This document shows positions 23,579 to 32,412 of a stretch of DNA of 64,000 bases, in pieces (positions within the stretch are counted from its first letter, which is position 1; the number at the start of each line of letters is the position of its first letter). The notes under the pieces are model-generated. The model was not told the origin of the DNA, did no database searches, and worked only from the letters and a program-made list of their open reading frames with translations. This DNA comes from Methanomicrobiales archaeon HGW-Methanomicrobiales-3 (GTDB lineage Archaea > Halobacteriota > Methanomicrobia > Methanomicrobiales > Methanospirillaceae), in assembly GCA_002839605.1 (NCBI GenBank), contig PGYK01000003.1:1-64000 (forward strand), read 5' to 3'. The translations under genes were made by a program, and so were the position numbers.

Positions 23579-24784
23579 TTACCCTTCCTTTCCTGCCGGG
23601 ATCATTCCCAGATATGGGGAGAGGAACAACGCTGCCGCACCGGCCATGAGGAGAACCGTGCAGACAAAGAGCAGCCCCGAACTCAATACCGCGATGAGAT
23701 CGATTCTAGTGACGGCGCCGATGATCAGTCCCGCCAGCAGCCCGGCCCAGAGGTAAACAAATGGCAGCAGGCAGGAAAGAGCCGGGATTTGCCACTTCTT
23801 TTTCCCTGCCACCCACAAGGCAGAGAGCATGACAGGAAGGATATAGACAAGGCCGACCAGCGTCCCGCCGAATATGATGAAAACAACCGTTGCAACCCCG
23901 GGGCTGAAACTCAGTAGCGAATACACCCCCTGCGATAACAGGACAATGCCAAGAAGCGGCACAAGTACGAGACGCATAACCGGTTTCACCGAAGGATTCT
24001 CGTCAATCGTCCGGGCAACAAACGGGCTGAACGAGTAATAGATTGCGTTCAGGGCCGTGACGTACCTGGAGCCGAGGTAGTCCTGTCTGATGGTATCGTC
24101 CCGGAAGTCCCGCACGAGCTGGACCTCGCTTGCCATGGGAGAGCCAAACGTTGCCGTGACAATCAGGCAGTCGCTGAATCCCTCATCCCTTGCCGCTGCC
24201 TGTGCTTCTGCTGCCATCTCTGCTTCGCGCACCTCCGCAGCACCCTTTCTGTCACCGACAACATCATACACTTCTGCCCCCTCATGGAAGATTTCGGCCT
24301 GCTGCTCGTATTTGCTGTCGGACGTCATCTCCATTGCTTTATTGTAATTCCTTTCCGCCTCAGTGCACGCATCTTTTGTCTTCTCATAAAGGGATCTGGC
24401 ATAGGGATCTGCGGCATAGAACCCGGACGCTACGCCGAACGTGGATTTCTGTTCCAGCGATGCTGCCAGGAACGTGGAGACTGAGCCGGAGAGCCGGCCT
24501 TCTGCCTGCTCCTTTGCAATGTATGCCTCTGCCCGCTCATCATGCATCCGGCTGTATTCAGTACACTGGCGTTTCCAGTAATTTCCCTCATCGACAAAAT
24601 CCTCCGCGGTGTTCAGGAATACCGGGCGTTGCTGGCCCAGTTTCTTATCAATCATGGCGATGCCCTCTGAAAACGGTATCAGGAAGTCATCCGCGGTCAC
24701 GTCGCTTTCGGCATGTACCGGGGGAATACTAATTACCAGTATGAGAAGCACGGCCAGAAGTGGAAGATGCACACGCTGCCCCAT
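23579..24784 (-). CDS. secreted helical protein with CFI-box and multi-helix C-terminus (paralogue 1)
   Basis: A 401-residue protein. A signal peptide (about 1-26) is followed by a helical, TPR-like region (about 30-200) rich in Tyr, Glu and Ala with RNYNKAMEMTSDSKYEQQAEIF. The CFI-box region follows: CLIVTATFGSPMASEVQL, then VRDFRDDTI and YYSFSPFVAR (about 205-265). The rest has four membrane helices. The leader GTAAGCTGACTCCAAAGGG before the ATG closely matches that of the next gene. Family knowledge: CFI-box domains are named C-terminal conserved modules of unknown role. It is 50% or more alike by eye to the neighbour at 24974. Confidence 0.85.
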   Translation of the reverse strand: MGQRVHLPLLAVLLILVISIPPVHAESDVTADDFLIPFSEGIAMIDKKLGQQRPVFLNTAEDFVDEGNYWKRQCTEYSRMHDERAEAYIAKEQAEGRLSGSVSTFLAASLEQKSTFGVASGFYAADPYARSLYEKTKDACTEAERNYNKAMEMTSDSKYEQQAEIFHEGAEVYDVVGDRKGAAEVREAEMAAEAQAAARDEGFSDCLIVTATFGSPMASEVQLVRDFRDDTIRQDYLGSRYVTALNAIYYSFSPFVARTIDENPSVKPVMRLVLVPLLGIVLLSQGVYSLLSFSPGVATVVFIIFGGTLVGLVYILPVMLSALWVAGKKKWQIPALSCLLPFVYLWAGLLAGLIIGAVTRIDLIAVLSSGLLFVCTVLLMAGAAALFLSPYLGMIPAGKEG

Positions 24785-24973
24785 ACATGCCCTTTGGAGT
24801 CAGCTTACAAAAAGCATGCGCCCCGGCTTTTCCGCTCACGACCCGAAACAGCGAGTATCAGGGACCGGATTCGTGCAGGCAGGAAAGGGTTCGGGGGCAG
24901 TTGAACGGACGCGTTATGTACAAAAAAAGAGCCGGGTTCATTCACGATGCTCCTGCCACAAAGAAAAAAAGGT

Positions 24974-26179
24974 TCACTCATCCTGTCCTTTTGGCGAGAA
25001 TCCCAGGTATCCGGCGAGCTGCAGGGCCATTGCTCCGGCAATGAGGATTGCAGTACAGAAAAAGAGAAGGCCACTGCTGAGTGCGGCGACCAGATCGATT
25101 CTGAACATTACCCCTATCGCAAGAACAGGAAGCAGCGAGGTCCAGAGAAGGACAAACGGCAAAAAGACCCGTCGTGCAGAGACCCGCCACTGCCCCTTCC
25201 GCACAGCGATCCAGAGGGCGGCAAGCACAAGGGGCATGAGATAGACCAGCCCGACCAGCGCACCACCGGCAACAATGAAGACAACCGTTGCAATCTCCGG
25301 GCTGAAAGCGAGCAGCGAATAGATCACCTGCGAGATGAGCACGATCCCGATGAGCGGGGCAAGTACGAGGCGCATCACCGGCTTTGCGGACGGGTTCTCA
25401 TCAATCGCCCGGGCAACGGACGGGCTGAACGAGTAATATACCGCATTCAATGCTGTTACATAGCGCGAACCAAGCCAGGTCTGTTGCATGGTATCATCGC
25501 GGAAACTGCGAACCAGCTGGACCTCACCGGCCATTGGGGACCCGAACGTCGCCGTGACAATCAGGCAGTCGCTGAAGCCCTCGTCCTTTGCTTCTGCACG
25601 GGCCATAGCAGCCGATTCCGCCTCACGTACCTCACTGGCTCCATCCGCATCTCCGATAATGTCATATAATTCCGCCGATTCGCGGAAGATCCGTGCGTGC
25701 TGCTGGTAGTCATCGGGGCGTGTCAGTTCGAATGCCTTGTTATATTTTATTTCCGCCTTGCTGCAGGAATATTTCATAGAGGACCAGTCAATACGTGCCA
25801 TTGGATTCTTTTCGTAAAAATCATTCATCATCGGCGTTTCCTGGAGTGCAACACGGGTTTCAGCATTGACATTAAGCATCATGTCCCAATCGCTGCTGCC
25901 GACGTGCCCGACGTACGGGAGTTCGTTGTTTCCCATTTCTCCCTTTATCTGGAGTATATAGGCACGAAACTTTGCATTATAACTCCTGCTGTTTTCTTCA
26001 CATCGTTCTTTGTCCTTTTCTGCTTCCCGGATATAATCACTGGCATCCTTCTGGTAACCGAGTTCCGCACCGCCCAGTACATCGAGTAACTGGTCCTGAA
26101 CATCCGCATGAGCCGGTGCGACTGCAAAACCGAGAAGAAGAAGTACCGCGACAGCAGCAGCAAGCAGCCTGTTCCTCAT
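24974..26179 (-). CDS. secreted helical protein with CFI-box and multi-helix C-terminus (paralogue 2)
   Basis: A 401-residue paralogue of the preceding protein, of identical length. Signal peptide (1-24), helical region with AEIKYNKAFELTRPDDYQQHARIFRE-like repeats, then CLIVTATFGSPMAGEVQLV, RSFRDDTM and YYSFSPSVAR, then four membrane helices. The upstream sequence GTAAGCTTAATCCAAAGGG before the ATG is nearly the same as in the other paralogues, so promoter or translation leader was copied with the gene. The N-terminal half differs most between copies, as expected for a ligand-binding part. Confidence 0.85.
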   Translation of the reverse strand: MRNRLLAAAVAVLLLLGFAVAPAHADVQDQLLDVLGGAELGYQKDASDYIREAEKDKERCEENSRSYNAKFRAYILQIKGEMGNNELPYVGHVGSSDWDMMLNVNAETRVALQETPMMNDFYEKNPMARIDWSSMKYSCSKAEIKYNKAFELTRPDDYQQHARIFRESAELYDIIGDADGASEVREAESAAMARAEAKDEGFSDCLIVTATFGSPMAGEVQLVRSFRDDTMQQTWLGSRYVTALNAVYYSFSPSVARAIDENPSAKPVMRLVLAPLIGIVLISQVIYSLLAFSPEIATVVFIVAGGALVGLVYLMPLVLAALWIAVRKGQWRVSARRVFLPFVLLWTSLLPVLAIGVMFRIDLVAALSSGLLFFCTAILIAGAMALQLAGYLGFSPKGQDE

Positions 26180-26249
26180 ACATGCCCCTTTGGATTAAGC
26201 TTACAAAAAAGTAATGCCGGGTCCCGGGATTTGGGACCCGGAGCAGCTC

Positions 26250-26921
26250 TTATTGCCGCCTACGGTGGAGGATCACTACCGCGCTCATGACCCCGAGGAG
26301 TGGCAGCCACCACGGCAGGGGAAGGTACATATCAGATTCCGCGTGTGCCAGAGCAACCGCCGCTGCGTCCCGGACCTGTCCGGCTTCCTCTGTCTGGCCG
26401 AGCGCATCATAGATTCCCGCGCCCTGGTTGAAGATCTCGGCCTGCTGACGGTAGTCGTCCTCCGGAGTCTTATCGAGCGCTGCATTGTAATTCTGCTCTG
26501 CCTCATTGCACGCCGCAAGCATGGAGTCCCAGTACGTCTGTGCCAGCGGATCTTTCTGGTGGAAACCCGTACTCATGACATATCCCCGCTGCTGGAGCGT
26601 CGGGTTCTTCAGGTTGTTCATCAGCGCTGCCGTATCCGCGGCGGGGTTCTGCGCGAGCGCCTCCTGCCGGACATATGCACGCAACTGTTCGTCATACAGA
26701 TTGCTGTAGTATTCACATTTTTCCTTGTGGGCATTACCGGCATCGAGATAGTCCTGTGCTGTCCACTGGTAGGCGGGTTTCGGATCGGTCAGGTCAATGC
26801 CGAAAAAGTCAAGCGAAGCTTCCCGGGCAAGGTCCTCCGCACGTTCAGCATGGACCGGAACCACGGCAAGTACGATGAGAATAAGCGCGGAAAGAGCGGG
26901 TATCAGCAGGTCAATCCTCAT
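26250..26921 (-). CDS. secreted helical protein with single C-terminal anchor (paralogue 3)
   Basis: A 223-residue protein that shares the signal peptide and helical domain with its neighbours (AQDYLDAGNAHKEKCEYYSN; QNYNAALDKTPEDDYRQQAE) but lacks the CFI-box. It ends with one hydrophobic helix (LPWWLPLLGVMSAVVIL) and HRRRQ, the layout of a membrane anchor with a positive tail. Its ATG has the same AAAGGGGCATGT leader as the two CFI-box paralogues downstream. It probably displays the helical domain outside the cell. Confidence 0.8.
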   Translation of the reverse strand: MRIDLLIPALSALILIVLAVVPVHAERAEDLAREASLDFFGIDLTDPKPAYQWTAQDYLDAGNAHKEKCEYYSNLYDEQLRAYVRQEALAQNPAADTAALMNNLKNPTLQQRGYVMSTGFHQKDPLAQTYWDSMLAACNEAEQNYNAALDKTPEDDYRQQAEIFNQGAGIYDALGQTEEAGQVRDAAAVALAHAESDMYLPLPWWLPLLGVMSAVVILHRRRQ

Positions 26922-27086
26922 ACATGCCCCTTTACGCCGAAATAGAATAATTTAACCGTTCGATATTCACACCATGACCCTGCCGGCAGGCAGCCGCATA
27001 CCGGACAGATCCTGTGGTGCAGAAGAAGAAACCGCCCGGGCTGTTCCCAATCAGATGCTCTGGTGAAATCATTCCCAGGGAGTCAT

Positions 27087-27172
27087 TTTGTGGAATTGCG
27101 AGGGTGCCCCTCCCCTCTCCCCATTAGGTGGAGGCAGCCTGCGGGGGCAAGCCCCCAAAACCCCCGGTTCTA
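27087..27172 (+). repeat. dispersed repeat, family D
   Basis: This copy (TTGTGGAATTGCGAGGGTG onwards to CCCCCAAAACCCCCGGTTC) matches 23243-23330 almost base for base and can form GGGGGCAAGCCCCC-type hairpins. It abuts the end of the 27181 gene. Confidence 0.7.
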
Positions 27173-27180
27173 TCATTTTT

Positions 27181-27891
27181 TTATTTTTTCCTGCGGCCCA
27201 GGAGGAACACCCCGCCGATGATCCCGAAGACCGCAATCCATGCCGGCAGGGGGAGAAGAGAGGAGAACAGGTTCTTTTTCACTTCCATCGCAGCACTTGC
27301 AGCAGCAGCCTTTTCGCATTCGATAAACCCTTCTTCGTCTCCGCTCAGAAGATACGAATCGGCGGCATCGGACCAGATCGATGCCTGGCGCCGGTAATCA
27401 TCCGGTTTCACAACATTGAGTGCCATGTTGTATTTTTCCCGGGCACACGTACAGTACCGGTACTTATCATCATAATAACCGGCCATCTCCGGGTCCGCGA
27501 TCCCGTATCCGGGTGCCGGGTTTGAAAGATAGGCCAGTTTCGAGGAATCTCCAAGAATTTCATCGCGGCTCCAGCCCTCGCCAAACGGATTGCCCGCCGC
27601 GGCCGACATTTCCAGCTGGCGATCGACCATTTTTTCTGAATACTCGCGGCATTTTTCTGCACATTCTCTTCCGGCCTCCTGCCATTGTTCGGCACTCCTG
27701 ACGTAGACCGGAACAGGATCGTCAAAAGCCGCCGCGCCATTGACAATGATAGTGGTTAAGAATTCCCCGGCATCCACCTGTACATCGGATGACACATCGC
27801 TGCCGGTCTTTCCGTCTGCGCTGACCGGGACTGTCAGAAAGACGGCTGCCGACATGAGCAGCAGGATCAGCACATATCTGGAGAACAGCAT
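27181..27891 (-). CDS. secreted helical protein with single C-terminal anchor (paralogue 4)
   Basis: A 236-residue protein with a signal peptide (about 1-26), a helical domain related to the neighbours (VRSAEQWQEAGRECAEKCREY; KYNMALNVVKPDDYRRQASIW; ADSYLLSGDEEGFIECEKAA) and a C-terminal anchor (LLPLPAWIAVFGIIGGVFLLGRRKK region). It lacks the CFI-box. It is the most diverged member of the group. An insertion element-like sequence lies just upstream of its start. Confidence 0.8.
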   Translation of the reverse strand: MLFSRYVLILLLMSAAVFLTVPVSADGKTGSDVSSDVQVDAGEFLTTIIVNGAAAFDDPVPVYVRSAEQWQEAGRECAEKCREYSEKMVDRQLEMSAAAGNPFGEGWSRDEILGDSSKLAYLSNPAPGYGIADPEMAGYYDDKYRYCTCAREKYNMALNVVKPDDYRRQASIWSDAADSYLLSGDEEGFIECEKAAAASAAMEVKKNLFSSLLPLPAWIAVFGIIGGVFLLGRRKK

Positions 27892-27935
27892 TTACTGACA
27901 ATTTCAATGAGGGGTAATTAATCTTGTGTTTTTGC

Positions 27936-28215
27936 AGGACTTACGCGGTTTGCTTCCGTTCAAGCGCGAGACAATAGTAAGAACTCACTTAAAAAAACCC
28001 GCATGAAGTCAAAGACTTCGCACCCATGCAATGAAAATTTTGTATTGCATACTCAATTTCCGGTTGTATTGAGAATCGTCGATAAACATCAAAATTTTCG
28101 CTCGTGCATTCCGGGGGGTTCAAACTCGCTCGATCTCCATTTCGGGTCTGTCTAAACCTTGAATTGGCGCTATTAGATCTCAGATCTTTTTGTCGAAACC
28201 AACTGCGTAAGTCCT
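27936..28215. mobile_element. MITE-like element, about 280 bp
   Basis: The stretch starts with AGGACTTACGCGGTTTGCTT and ends with the inverse of AGGACTTACGCAGTTGGTTT: 17 of 20 bases agree, 11 of them in a row at the tip. The inside is AT-rich, unlike its surroundings, and encodes nothing. Termini of the type GGACTTACGCA occur in insertion sequences, so this looks like a non-autonomous derivative. No clear target duplication is visible and no transposase is in the window. Confidence 0.65.
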
Positions 28216-28291
28216 ATAACGATAAAAACTGACAAAAACACAATATTTTTCAACTGTCCAACTGAACATTCAGGTCAGATGAGGCGATATC

Positions 28292-28771
28292 ATGTTCTGT
28301 GGTGAATGCGGCACACAAAACCCGGATACCAACCAGTTCTGCAAGAACTGTGGCAAACCCCTCCGCAAAGCTCAGCAAACTCCCGCAACTCAACCGGTAA
28401 CACCACCCGAAACCCCGCATGTCATGCCTCCCCCGGCACAACCTGCCTCTGTTCCACCCCTGGCAACCGGAGTTCAGCCACCAGTTCTCGTTGCGGGATC
28501 TGCGAACCCCGTTGAAAAACCGCCACGGAACACGAAGATGCTTGTTCTAGGCATCGTCGGGGTCCTGCTTGGCATCGGTTCATTCTTACGGTACCCATAC
28601 CTTCTGGCGATTCTCGCCATAATCATTGGTGGCTTTGTCATAGCAAAACCCGAGAACAGGAAAGGTGCGGTTTTGATTGTTGCCTGCATTGCAATCCTGA
28701 TAGGGATTGCCTCCTTCCTGTTTGATATGTTTTATCTTGTTATTCTGCCACCGGTTCCCCCGGAAATCTGA
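28292..28771 (+). CDS. zinc-ribbon multi-helix membrane protein (paralogue)
   Basis: A 159-residue relative of the protein at 22460: one zinc ribbon at the start (MFCGECGTQNPDTNQFCKNCGK), a proline-rich linker (about 27-80) and a membrane part with three helices (about 85-155) ending in VILPPVPPEI, much like the other copy's end (IFPPPQVLPPIQ). GAGGCGAT stands 4 bases before the ATG. It lies between the MITE-like element and a convergent CFI-box gene. Confidence 0.82.
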   Translation: MFCGECGTQNPDTNQFCKNCGKPLRKAQQTPATQPVTPPETPHVMPPPAQPASVPPLATGVQPPVLVAGSANPVEKPPRNTKMLVLGIVGVLLGIGSFLRYPYLLAILAIIIGGFVIAKPENRKGAVLIVACIAILIGIASFLFDMFYLVILPPVPPEI

Positions 28772-28804
28772 ATTGTCCGGTGGAAAAAAATTCTTTTTTG
28801 ATAT

Positions 28805-29827
28805 TTATGCCGAAACGGCATCTTTCCGGCCAACATACCGGGACAGTGACAAAAGAAGGGCACCGGTCGTGAGGATGATGGTAGCAACCACAAAGAGCCC
28901 TGAGGCTACCGTTGTCAGCAGGTCCAGGGAGAATGCCGACCCCGTCACGATAAGAAGGAGAAGAACGCCCCATACCCCTGCTACCGGCAGGATACGCCGG
29001 ATATTCCCGCCATCCCAGCCGCGAAGACGGGCAATCCACACACCTGCCAATGCGGTCGGGAAGACATAGATAAGGCCAAACAGGGTACTTCCGACAATGA
29101 TGGCAGCGATGGTTGCCAGCTCGGGATTGAAACTCAGGAAAGAATACATGACCTGGGCAATGAGAACGATCTGGAGAATCGGGGTTATCAGTACCCGCAT
29201 GACCGGTTTCGTGACCGGGTGTTCATTGATATACGTTGAGACCTGGGGACTGAACGAGTAATACCATGCATTGAATCCTGGCATGAAACGGGATCCCGTA
29301 TAACTCTTCACAATCGAATCGTCACGGAAGCTCCTGACCAGCTGCACCTCGCTTGCCAGGGGAGACCCGAATGTGGCAGTAACAATGAGACAACCATAAT
29401 CCTGGATTGAGCCTTTCTCTTGTCCTTTGGCCTCCCACTTGGCTGCGTTTGTGTATGCCTCCTGTTTCTCGGCCTCGTGACCTCCCCATTTCGCATACGT
29501 ATCGCCTTTCAACTTCTCTATGGAAGCAACCGCTAATTCGGCAGAACCGTCATCTCTTTCAGAGGATGTCATCGCACTCATTTGAGCTGCATTGAAATTT
29601 GTTATCGCATCCTCGTAGTTACCATTTTCCAACGCTCTCTTACCTTCAATCTTGAAATCATAATAGCCCCACTGCGTCTTGGGCTTCTCCTGGAGGAGAT
29701 TCGGGAGGCCCACGCCAATAATGGGCGCTGACAGGGAAGCATCCATCGAGGCAGCCTGGAGGGGGGGCATTACAATGAAGAGCAGGCAGATCAGCAGAAG
29801 AATGTGTCCTGATTTACGGTGTGTCAT
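28805..29827 (-). CDS. secreted protein with CFI-box and multi-helix C-terminus (paralogue 5)
   Basis: A 340-residue protein with a signal peptide (about 1-25), a shorter helical domain with a TPR-like unit (ALENGNYEDAITNFNAAQMSA), then the CFI-box: CLIVTATFGSPLASEVQLV, RSFRDDSI and YYSFSPQVST, then four membrane helices. The N-terminal half differs from those of the 401-residue paralogues, whereas the CFI-box and membrane part are well conserved, so these C-terminal modules have been recombined with different outer domains. Convergent with the zinc-ribbon gene at 28292. Confidence 0.82.
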   Translation of the reverse strand: MTHRKSGHILLLICLLFIVMPPLQAASMDASLSAPIIGVGLPNLLQEKPKTQWGYYDFKIEGKRALENGNYEDAITNFNAAQMSAMTSSERDDGSAELAVASIEKLKGDTYAKWGGHEAEKQEAYTNAAKWEAKGQEKGSIQDYGCLIVTATFGSPLASEVQLVRSFRDDSIVKSYTGSRFMPGFNAWYYSFSPQVSTYINEHPVTKPVMRVLITPILQIVLIAQVMYSFLSFNPELATIAAIIVGSTLFGLIYVFPTALAGVWIARLRGWDGGNIRRILPVAGVWGVLLLLIVTGSAFSLDLLTTVASGLFVVATIILTTGALLLSLSRYVGRKDAVSA

Positions 29828-30029: not shown

Positions 30030-32279
30030 ATGGCCGATGATACAAAAATTCCCAAGGATACAATTCTGCGGGATACATCAACAACAGGGACATCGGGGGT
30101 TTTCGGAGGAGCAGGAAGGGAGATCATCGGGGAACCAGTGCATCCGGAAAACAGCATGGAATGGTGGTTTGTCCAGGGCTCATTTGAGGGAAAAACCATT
30201 GGGCACCGGCATTTCATGGTAAGCATCTTCCGGTTTGATCTCCAAAAGAAAGGAGCGGCCCCGTATGACAATTATTATGCACTTATCTCGGTGCTTGACC
30301 CGGCCACTGGGGAAAATTCCATTACAAGCAGGGCGGAATCCAAAATTATCAACCGGCTCTCTGACCATGCCATGGAACTGAAATCCACGGATCTTCACCA
30401 GGCACTCCTTGAGACGTATATCGAAGAACTCAGGAACTATGGACCCCCGGCCCCTATAACAACAGAAGAAGAAAGACCGGAAATCGAACAAAATCCGTTC
30501 TCATTTTTTTGGAAAGACCTCACATTTCGCATCAACGATACTGGTATTTATCTCTCCTTCGATTTGGCTGGCAGCGGCGGGAGGTGCCGGTTCCATCTCA
30601 AACCACAATCCTCCCGCTACACGCTTGAAAACATCGGAACAGGGCCCGACCGGACCATGACCTATGCCACCTGGCCCCGGCATATCATCACCGGGCAGAT
30701 GGACGGGGAACCCGTGACCGGAACCGCATGGTTCGATCACCAGTGGGGCAACACAGGATGGTTCCTTTCAAGTCCCAGGGGAGGTGACCTCTCCGGCTGG
30801 GACTGGGCCGGAATCAATGGCGCTGACGGTTCTGATTGGATCTTCTTAACCTTCCGCAACCCAAAAAACGGGGACATCATCAGCCGTTTCGCCGCACGGT
30901 TCAAGGAGGGCGAAGAGGTTCGGACATTTTCAGATTTCTCCATACAGCCGGTGCGTTTCTGGACCAGTGAGAAGACGCATATCAGATATCCAATAGCACA
31001 GCAGATCGAAATTGAGGAGATTTCCGCACGGTTTGTCCTGGAGCCGGTCACTGACGACCAGGAGATACCGGTCCTTGGCCCCATGCGGGCAATCTGGGAA
31101 GGTGCAACGGTTGTCACAGGGTCAGTTGGAAACGATCCGTTTTACGGCACCGCCCGGCTTGAGCTTCAGGGATATGGTTATATCTTTGATTTCGGGCAGT
31201 TCATCGAAAACCACGTAAACCGGATCCAGAAATGTATTGAATCGTTCCTCCCGGAAAACCCCGGGGATGAAGATTTCATGAGGCTTGTTGGCCCCTCATT
31301 CGGGATTCAGGACAGTGCGGCATTAACAGATACGATCATTCGCCCGGCCTGGGACCTGCTCTCCCGTAAGAAAAAAAACTGGCGGCCGGTATTTGGCCTG
31401 CTTCTCCTTGAATCGCTCGGGATCAATTCCGAAAAATACGAGATGCTGCTCTCGGTCGTGCCAGAATTAACCCACACGGGAACGCTCATTATTGACGATA
31501 TCGAGGATGGAGCCGTTGTCCGCCGGGGTGACACCTGCATTCATCACCGGTATGGGACAGATGTGGCAATCAATGCAGCAAATACCCTGTATTTCCTCCC
31601 CTCGGTGCTGTTCAGCACACATCCCGATCTCTCGGATTCCCAGCGCCTCGAGTTTTTCCGGATTACTCACGATTCCTTTATCAAAGGGCATTTTGGCCAG
31701 GCTCAGGATATTTACTGGACGAAAAACATGAATGAGGAGAATCTTGCCATGTGGATGGATGACAGCATGGCAGAACAGATCCTCCGGATGTATGAGTTCA
31801 AGACCGCTTCGGCAGCAATAGCTACGGCTGAAGCGGGATGTATCCTTGCCGGAACCACTCCCGAAGTGCGTGAGGCATGTGTTGCCTATGCCCGGGCCCT
31901 TGGTATTGCGTTCCAGATAATCGATGATATCCAGAGTTTTTTACCGGATCAGGAGCCCGGAGATCAGCCGGGGGATGACCTGGCTGCGGGGAAACTTACG
32001 TACGTGATCATCAGGGCGCTTGACCTGCTGAACGATCCTGACCGCTCCCGGCTCCAGGAGATCCTCTGCTCAAAACGCTTACGGCAGGATCCTCATACCC
32101 TGGACGAGGGAATTGCCCTGGTCCGGAAATCCGGAACCCTCTCAGCATGCCGGGCAGAGGCGCACATGATGACAGCGAGGGCATGGGTGGAGTTCTCCCA
32201 AATTGTACCCCCCTCAGAGCCAAAGGTCATGCTCCGGTTATTCACAAAGAACCTCCTGGACCCTGATGGTTCTCCATAA
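30030..32279 (+). CDS. fusion of CrtC/AttH lipocalin-like domain and polyprenyl diphosphate synthase
   Basis: A 749-residue protein. Residues about 30-400 resemble the CrtC/AttH (carotenoid 1,2-hydratase-like, double lipocalin) family: ENSMEWWFVQGSFEG, GHRHFMVSIFRFD, WFDHQWGNTGWF and SGWDWAGINGADG. Residues about 440-740 are an all-trans polyprenyl diphosphate synthase, with the first aspartate-rich motif DDIED (489-493), the RRG that follows, the GHFGQAQDI segment and the second aspartate motif IIDDIQ (632-635). Both halves keep their signature residues. Polyprenyl synthases join isopentenyl units; CrtC-type enzymes hydrate isoprenoid double bonds, so a made-and-modified isoprenoid is a plausible product, by inference. 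The gene stands alone, with no other isoprenoid gene next to it. Confidence 0.88.
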   Translation: MADDTKIPKDTILRDTSTTGTSGVFGGAGREIIGEPVHPENSMEWWFVQGSFEGKTIGHRHFMVSIFRFDLQKKGAAPYDNYYALISVLDPATGENSITSRAESKIINRLSDHAMELKSTDLHQALLETYIEELRNYGPPAPITTEEERPEIEQNPFSFFWKDLTFRINDTGIYLSFDLAGSGGRCRFHLKPQSSRYTLENIGTGPDRTMTYATWPRHIITGQMDGEPVTGTAWFDHQWGNTGWFLSSPRGGDLSGWDWAGINGADGSDWIFLTFRNPKNGDIISRFAARFKEGEEVRTFSDFSIQPVRFWTSEKTHIRYPIAQQIEIEEISARFVLEPVTDDQEIPVLGPMRAIWEGATVVTGSVGNDPFYGTARLELQGYGYIFDFGQFIENHVNRIQKCIESFLPENPGDEDFMRLVGPSFGIQDSAALTDTIIRPAWDLLSRKKKNWRPVFGLLLLESLGINSEKYEMLLSVVPELTHTGTLIIDDIEDGAVVRRGDTCIHHRYGTDVAINAANTLYFLPSVLFSTHPDLSDSQRLEFFRITHDSFIKGHFGQAQDIYWTKNMNEENLAMWMDDSMAEQILRMYEFKTASAAIATAEAGCILAGTTPEVREACVAYARALGIAFQIIDDIQSFLPDQEPGDQPGDDLAAGKLTYVIIRALDLLNDPDRSRLQEILCSKRLRQDPHTLDEGIALVRKSGTLSACRAEAHMMTARAWVEFSQIVPPSEPKVMLRLFTKNLLDPDGSP

Positions 32280-32340: not shown

Positions 32341-32412
32341 GGGCTGGTAGATCAGTGGTAGATCGCTTCCTTGGCATGGAAGAGGCCGCGGGTTCAATTC
32401 CCGCCCAGTCCA
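32341..32412 (+). tRNA. tRNA-Ala (GGC anticodon)
   Basis: The acceptor halves GGGCTGG and CCAGTCC pair (one G-U), the T arm is GCGGG-TTCAATT-CCCGC, and the anticodon stem CTTCC/GGAAG holds the loop TTGGCAT with GGC at 34-36. The discriminator is A. No intron and no encoded CCA. Confidence 0.95.

Follow-up and report, generated by a model that had tools for sequence, protein, structure and literature searches.

The fused gene and its domains

The window is the whole 64,000-nucleotide stretch of DNA that was analysed, and it belongs to a host genome of 2.59 Mb that is 98% complete (G000, contig C11). The following features were assigned at the locus.

30030..32279, + strand: fused AttH/CrtC-fold and polyprenyl diphosphate synthase gene (single uninterrupted 749-codon ORF, Pfam domains)
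30126..31205, + strand: N-terminal AttH/CrtC double-lipocalin domain, residues 33-392 (PF07143 and PF17186, model fold matches)
30735..30737, + strand: codon of Asp236, aligned with CrtC Asp268 and proposed as proton donor (alignment to carotenoid-cluster CrtC)
30798..30806, + strand: Trp257-x-Trp259, aligned with CrtC Trp283/Trp285 (alignment; 12/12 fusions)
31212..32264, + strand: C-terminal trans-polyprenyl diphosphate synthase domain, residues 395-745 (PF00348, fold matches)
31494..31508, + strand: first Asp-rich motif DDIED, residues 489-493, followed by RRG (12/12 fusions)
31923..31937, + strand: second Asp-rich motif DDIQS, residues 632-636, with Ser for the third Asp (fusion alignment)
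28805..29827, - strand: CFI-box-CTERM membrane protein gene, divergent neighbour (NF041770, 62.5 bits against a cut-off of 40)

In the Pfam search, CrtC (PF07143) matched residues 154-241 with 41.6 bits against a gathering cut-off of 22.5, and Lipocalin_9 (PF17186) matched residues 253-382 with 68.1 bits against 26.2. The polyprenyl_synt family (PF00348) matched residues 437-682 with 158.9 bits, above its gathering cut-off. A preliminary description had claimed one 749-residue polypeptide combining a double-lipocalin domain with a prenyl synthase, and this was confirmed by the single ORF lying exactly at 30030-32279 and its Pfam domains.

A hydrophobic N-terminal leader is absent from the fusion and was present in 24 of the 43 AttH relatives examined. 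Therefore, the fusion can meet cytosolic diphosphates. The observed domains, the conservation of their active sites and their evolution as a unit suggest that the protein is quite possibly a bifunctional cytoplasmic isoprenoid enzyme.

Active-site residues of the AttH/CrtC-fold domain

The N-terminal domain was aligned with the carotenoid-cluster CrtC of Roseobacter (L188), and the Rg-to-Roseobacter residue numbering was counted back from Asp268. The roles of the CrtC residues Asp268, Trp283/285, Trp110, His239, Trp241 and Tyr266 follow the available parts of PMC4717167 and PMC12402844. Asp236 aligned with Asp268, and Trp257/Trp259 aligned with Trp283/Trp285. Trp45 aligned with a residue that is probably CrtC Trp110. 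Asp236, Trp257, Trp259 and Trp45/46 were invariant in 12/12 aligned methanogen fusions. In contrast, His239, Trp241 and Tyr266 of CrtC are not conserved in the window protein, which has Asp207, Thr209 and Trp234 at these positions, and none of the 12 fusions carries His or Trp at the His239/Trp241 positions. The claim of a CrtC signature was thus half true: the Asp and the Trp pair are present in all 12 fusions, but the domain is of the AttH type and lacks the His239/Trp241 equivalents.

The counterparts of Asp236, Trp257 and Trp259 were also invariant in the 43 AttH rows aligned. Conservation of the Asp and the Trp pair is therefore a trait of the whole family and does not prove a hydratase; on this alignment these residues may be structural rather than catalytic. 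The methanogen fusions fall into the window's own family (f1) and two other families (f2 and f5). The motif WxDxQWGN..WxW was found in 4/4 aligned f1 fusions, while its QWGN part was altered in 8/8 f2/f5 fusions, with Trp239 lost in each of them.

A true CrtC was ruled out, since the protein lacks residues essential to that enzyme and the host genome carries no gene for squalene/phytoene synthase. No match to SQS_PSY (PF00494) was found in the host genome, and a carotenoid pathway in the host was rejected on the same ground. SQS/PSY genes, whose family counts were assigned by hand, occurred in 0/5 f1 fusion genomes, in 7/9 f2/f5 fusion genomes and in 13/52 f2/f5 genomes without the fusion (p 0.004, uncorrected). 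CrtC substrates include geranylgeraniol and farnesol, which are hydrated at the terminal prenyl unit according to the available part of PMC12402844.

Predicted structure and fold matches

An AlphaFold2 model built with 48 sequences had a mean pLDDT of 77.8 and was poor at residues 471-527; a single-sequence model of the N-terminal domain (pLDDT 36.5) was useless. Folds were compared by VIA-align, and nearest here means nearest among the matches listed. The best of these for the N-terminal model (residues 29-384) was NE1406/AttH (2ich_B), with Z 33.7 and 2.6 A over 293 residues at 25% identity. This match placed two orthogonal lipocalin-like barrels in the domain, and the WxD...WxW signature is common to both proteins. 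AttH proteins are free-standing or lie in longer ORFs beside ABC permeases, whereas the domain in the window is fused to a prenyl synthase.

Among the matches listed, kievitone hydratase (7a0q, Z 28.2; also 7a0t) came nearest of the solved enzymes whose activity is known. It has the same double-lipocalin fold, with WYDRQWGNT..WTW where the window protein has WFDHQWGNT..WDW. However, kievitone hydratase is a secreted single enzyme of fungi with 16% identity to the N-terminal domain, and QWGN is lost in the f2/f5 fusions. Its reaction is the hydration of a prenyl group to a tertiary alcohol, as described in the available parts of PMC5805349 and PMC6013536. Further matches were the pericyclases CghA, Fsa2 and Phm7 (Z about 21-22) and, by their PDB titles, 25-phosphosteroid lyase structures (9g2i, Z 21.1 and 3.6 A over 269 residues; 9fzn, Z 20.7).

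The C-terminal domain matched solved polyprenyl synthases with Z of about 21-24. The prenyltransferase (PT) domain of the fungal copalyl diphosphate synthase PvCPS, a bifunctional cyclase-prenyltransferase fusion, was among its matches (Z 21-22). In both proteins a modifying domain is joined to its own prenyltransferase, and the PT domains are similar in fold, but the modifying domain of PvCPS is a class II cyclase and that of the window protein has the AttH fold. The PvCPS match would fit an N-terminal domain that acts as a proton-initiated, class II-like terpene cyclase, in which a neighbouring double bond instead of water quenches the cation and a cyclic prenyl diphosphate results. CghA, Fsa2 and Phm7 form rings by [4+2] chemistry in the same fold, and the available part of PMC4717167 bases its proposed CrtC mechanism on an analogy with squalene-hopene cyclase. 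However, the nearest characterised structure among the matches listed is a hydratase. Protonation-driven cyclisation of a prenyl diphosphate is not known to us from any enzyme of the CrtC/AttH fold, and such a cyclase is quite unlikely here.

The prenyl synthase domain

The C-terminal domain shares its fold and the FARM, RRG, KTA and GQxxD motifs with trans-polyprenyl synthases (PF00348) and archaeal IdsA. The FARM DDxxD, the RRG, the Lys of KTA and the Gln and Asp of GQxxD were retained in 12/12 fusions. The second Asp motif was DDxxS in three fusions, NDxxC in one and DDxxN in eight, so that its third Asp was absent throughout. The preliminary statement that both aspartate-rich motifs are present was therefore only partly right: the first, DDIED, is canonical, but in the second, DDIQS, Ser replaces the third Asp. 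A DDxxN second motif occurs in eukaryotic GGPP synthases, and the altered motif thus does not exclude activity. Loss of the Asp motifs or the CrtC signature in homologues, which had been raised as evidence against the preliminary interpretation, was not seen among the methanogens, where signatures of both types were retained in 12/12 aligned fusions.

The domain scored 113.9 bits against IdsA_Meth (NF040698), below the equivalog cut-off of 468. In the C-domain tree, the sampled methanogen and bacterial fusions and two free-standing Streptomyces synthases formed one clade (100/99), and the remaining 17 synthases, including ten from methanogens, fell outside it. The fusion clade is thus distinct from methanogen IdsA, from which the fusions also differ in their second motif (DDxx[S/N] or NDxxC), and an origin from the housekeeping IdsA was rejected by this tree. 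A further polyprenyl synthase is encoded separately in the host genome (C16:477904, 232 bits) and is likely its housekeeping IdsA.

Spread and evolution in the methanogen class

The class was scanned in 232 genomes, with an alignment of the 12 fusions for the N-terminal domain (E <= 1e-8) and with a C-domain alignment for the synthase (E <= 1e-30). The N-terminal domain was matched in 14 genomes, which belong to 7 of the 40 genera and to 3 families. The C-terminal domain was matched in the same 14 and in G058, where the synthase half is reduced to a broken remnant (L124, 9761-10728). This remnant suggests a recent loss of the fusion. With both profiles, no intact copy of either domain type standing apart from the other was seen in the 232 genomes. 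In a wider phylum sample, 8/392 genomes matched the N-terminal domain, and two of these matches (G407 and G325) were weak and free-standing.

The preliminary description had proposed looking for the same fusion elsewhere, and it was recovered in 14/232 class genomes and in co-linear bacterial versions. The two halves shared a reading frame, as an intact single ORF, in 12 of the 14 fusion genomes; the other two (G186 and G142) have frameshifted ORFs and were excluded from the 12-row alignment. Independence of the two halves, the second condition raised against the preliminary interpretation, was thus not seen among the methanogens at the level of reading frames. In all seven pairs computed, dN was below dS in both halves (N half, dN 0.043-0.173 and dS 0.086-0.879; C half, dN 0.014-0.103 and dS 0.109-1.142). 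Both halves are under purifying selection. An assembly chimera or chance ORF was ruled out by this codon-level constraint and by the recurrence of the fusion in the class and in bacteria.

In the fusion tree, f1 was separated from f2 and f5. One f2 genome (G019) clustered with the f5 rows with support of 100/100, a placement that suggests gene transfer between families. A foreign base composition was rejected for the fusion gene, which has a GC of 0.529 where the whole window has 0.564. Among seven other fusion loci, six deviated from their flanks by no more than 0.02 and one (L114) exceeded them by 0.035.

Irregular gene models were seen at several loci. One genome carries the kinase-fusion cluster described below three times in near-identical form, at about 20 kb spacing and across contig ends (G049:C1; L114, L115 and L116), which represents tandem amplification or an assembly artefact. 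A three-domain kinase-AttH-PT protein, given by an 1814-aa ORF at L116, was rejected. The kinase C-terminus there is out of frame, and the ORF is read as a frameshift artefact because the two sister copies keep kinase and fusion separate. Six loci (L112, 8380-8580, and the equivalent positions of L113, L117, L119, L122 and L123) contain no in-frame ATG, GTG or TTG before the conserved stretch just upstream of the first Trp pair. A Shine-Dalgarno-like stretch immediately precedes a conserved GTT, ATT or ATC codon in all six, suggesting a non-canonical start codon.

Gene neighbourhood

In the window's family, genes for a CFI-box-family membrane protein and a zinc-ribbon protein lie beside the fusion in 5/5 loci. 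A run of related CFI-box-CTERM-type genes occupies 23579-29827 of the window on the - strand, upstream of the fusion (23579-24784, 24974-26179, 27181-27891 and 28805-29827). A tRNA-Ala(GGC) gene lies just 3' of the fusion (32341-32412, + strand); it was found in 4/5 f1 loci, also L003, L005 and L111 but not L004.

In f2 and f5, a gene for a phosphotransferase of the rifampin phosphotransferase (RPH) type lies directly upstream of the fusion on the same strand in 9/9 fusion genomes from five genera; the remaining neighbours vary among genera. The encoded proteins are roughly 880-940 aa long, and some copies from MAGs are frameshifted. A kinase of this type was found in only 1/52 sampled f2/f5 genomes without the fusion (G001, 965 bits), giving a Fisher p of 6e-10, uncorrected for relatedness. 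The genome search detected no RPH-type kinase in the window's genome. The neighbour kinase shares with RPH, PigC and RedH the layout of PPDK_N, middle domain and PEP-utilizers domain (5fbs, E 5.8e-73) and the catalytic His, which is kept in the swivel domain of 8/8 aligned copies. However, it scores well under the equivalog cut-offs (RIF_Ptrans_rph, 308.9 against 999). A TATA-like box and a Shine-Dalgarno-like stretch were seen by eye between kinase and fusion at six loci, and because the TATA-like box separates the two genes, their co-transcription is not implied.

The constant kinase neighbour makes conceivable a kinase-assisted elimination in f2 and f5, in which the RPH-type kinase would phosphorylate a tertiary prenyl alcohol and the AttH domain would eliminate the phosphate to leave an alkene. 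The model for this is the pair of 25-hydroxysteroid kinase and 25-phosphosteroid lyase from anaerobic sterol degradation, in which an AttH-fold protein (9g2i and 9fzn) and a kinase act on a tertiary isoprenoid alcohol, a logic described in the available part of PMC8449060. However, 25-hydroxysteroid kinase is an ADP-forming kinase of about 40 kDa from another family and is not RPH-like. Identity to the lyase is 9%, the sources available to us in part describe no prenyl-synthase fusion for this pair, and the window's own family lacks the RPH-type kinase. We regard such an elimination as distinctly improbable.

Two other arrangements were noted by eye. In a distant archaeon, a free-standing AttH-like gene is divergent from a putative gene for a geranylgeranyl-reductase-type flavoprotein (L174, 5628-7779). 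Elsewhere, two genes resembling phytoene desaturases stand close to one for a distantly related kinase (377 bits, G018; L173, 8110-15747).

Bacterial relatives

A tblastn search of plasmids recovered this architecture from Streptomyces canus NBC_01585 and from Tolypothrix PCC 7601 and PCC 7712. The S. canus protein (747 aa) is co-linear with residues 26-738 of the window protein at 26% identity (E 2.6e-58), and its second Asp motif is DDVID. The PCC 7601 protein has 1509 aa and is fused further to a sulfotransferase and a glycosyltransferase; its domains are as follows.

Residues 8-218: Sulfotransfer_3
Residues 315-695: GT28/EryCIII-like
Residues 809-1141: CrtC and Lipocalin_9
Residues 1201-1452: polyprenyl_synt

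The preliminary idea that chain building is coupled to another activity gains from this homologue with its extra glycosyl- and sulfotransferase domains. In RefSeq, both the Streptomyces and the Tolypothrix versions are called simply polyprenyl synthetase family protein, and the AttH half is therefore hidden in current annotation. Nitrosomonas stercoris has a version of 649 aa whose N-terminal half could not be recognised as AttH (probability 5.6 in a comparison with the AttH profile). The fusion may have arisen once or more than once: the N-domains of the methanogen fusions did not group with those of the bacterial ones, but a single clade was not rejected (p-AU 0.206).

No fusion relative was found in viral contigs. 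Among cyanobacterial-phylum genomes, with two candidates per genome scored, 2/386 matched at E <= 1e-40, both with free-standing PTs, which is a weak result. A general pairing of bacterial AttH genes with prenyl synthase genes was rejected: a PT gene lay nearby at only one of 76 non-fusion loci (L075), where no operon was evident. Five other S. canus plasmids carry truncated copies of the synthase part (hits H42-H46; query residues 525-746, 90-94% identity). Bacterial AttH domains also occur in ORFs of at least 1000 aa (L069, L012, L013; plasmid hits H13-H14 and H17-H18), where a single match carries annotations for both lipocalin-like genes and ABC transporter permease genes.

ABC-exporter genes flank the PCC 7601 fusion, coding for a DevC-type permease, an ATPase and a membrane fusion protein. 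Beside the S. canus fusion, and divergent from it, lie paired genes for an ABC permease and an ATPase. These neighbours are consistent with a non-catalytic lipocalin, an AttH domain that would only bind or shield the hydrophobic product of the synthase and hand it on, as a carrier or for product release. AttH members are tied to ABC/LolD-type lipid systems and bind ligand mimics in their barrels, according to the available part of PMC2954199. The CrtC-type Asp is not universal in the distant fusions, being Glu in S. canus and missing in Nitrosomonas. However, Asp236 and the Trp pair are invariant in all 12 methanogen fusions, and those members of the fold that have been characterised (CrtC, kievitone hydratase, Fsa2/Phm7/CghA and 25-phosphosteroid lyase) are enzymes. 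A mere carrier is unlikely.

Proposed activity

The preliminary description had offered a hydrated lipid tail as its example, and a hydratase for archaeal membrane lipid tails of the hydroxyarchaeol type was considered. The host, as a methanogen, makes ether lipids, and the fold is known for chemistry that places a tertiary hydroxyl on an isoprenoid chain. However, only 14/232 class genomes have the fusion, the synthase clade stands apart from the housekeeping IdsA, and related fusions occur in bacteria. Moreover, hydroxyarchaeol formation in Methanosarcina is assigned to a phytoene-desaturase homologue, which lacks the AttH fold, in the available part of PMC10821996. A role of this kind is highly improbable.

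We tentatively favour, as a plausible reading, that the C-terminal domain builds an isoprenoid chain and the N-terminal domain performs proton-initiated chemistry on a C=C bond, most likely hydration to a tertiary alcohol. From the observed domains, conservation and partner genes we infer the substrate, the chain length and the following steps and their order. The synthase domain would elongate an allylic diphosphate with IPP to an all-trans chain, probably of C20 or longer by the usual rules for the small residues just before the first Asp motif. Asp236 would protonate a trisubstituted C=C bond of the new chain, Trp257 and Trp259 would stabilise the resulting cation, and water would quench it to give the tertiary alcohol. 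The hydroxyl could then serve as a handle for partner-specific tailoring. In f2 and f5, the upstream RPH-type kinase would transfer a phosphoryl group to it; in Tolypothrix, it would be glycosylated and sulfated; and in bacteria, the adjacent ABC systems would export the product. Such tailoring cannot be assumed in the window's host, because its genome lacks the dedicated kinase and an SQS/PSY gene. The missing equivalents of CrtC His239 and Trp241, the altered second Asp motif and the poor model at residues 471-527 also count against this reading.

Significance of the fusion

Both folds are known, and their combination of AttH/CrtC fold and prenyl synthase is apparently unreported, which is a lead and not proof; no report of such a fusion or cluster was found in the open PMC literature, outside which most subscription journals lie. 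The fusion points to an undescribed isoprenoid product. A broader proposal, which we consider possible but rather doubtful, is a new terpenoid-forming architecture spread by gene transfer among archaea and bacteria. In it, AttH-fold acid catalysis would be permanently coupled to its own prenyl synthase, hydrating or cyclising the chain just made and feeding undescribed exported or membrane isoprenoids (phospho-, glyco- or sulfo-). On this proposal, methanogens would possess a dedicated terpenoid pathway outside ether lipids.

The fusion makes the testable claim that building an isoprenoid and altering its double bond are the work of a single enzyme. If true, this would extend the terpene-tailoring prenyltransferase fusions by a modifying domain of a new kind. 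It would also give a possible substrate class to the widespread AttH family. For the methanogens, it would indicate an unrecognised isoprenoid.
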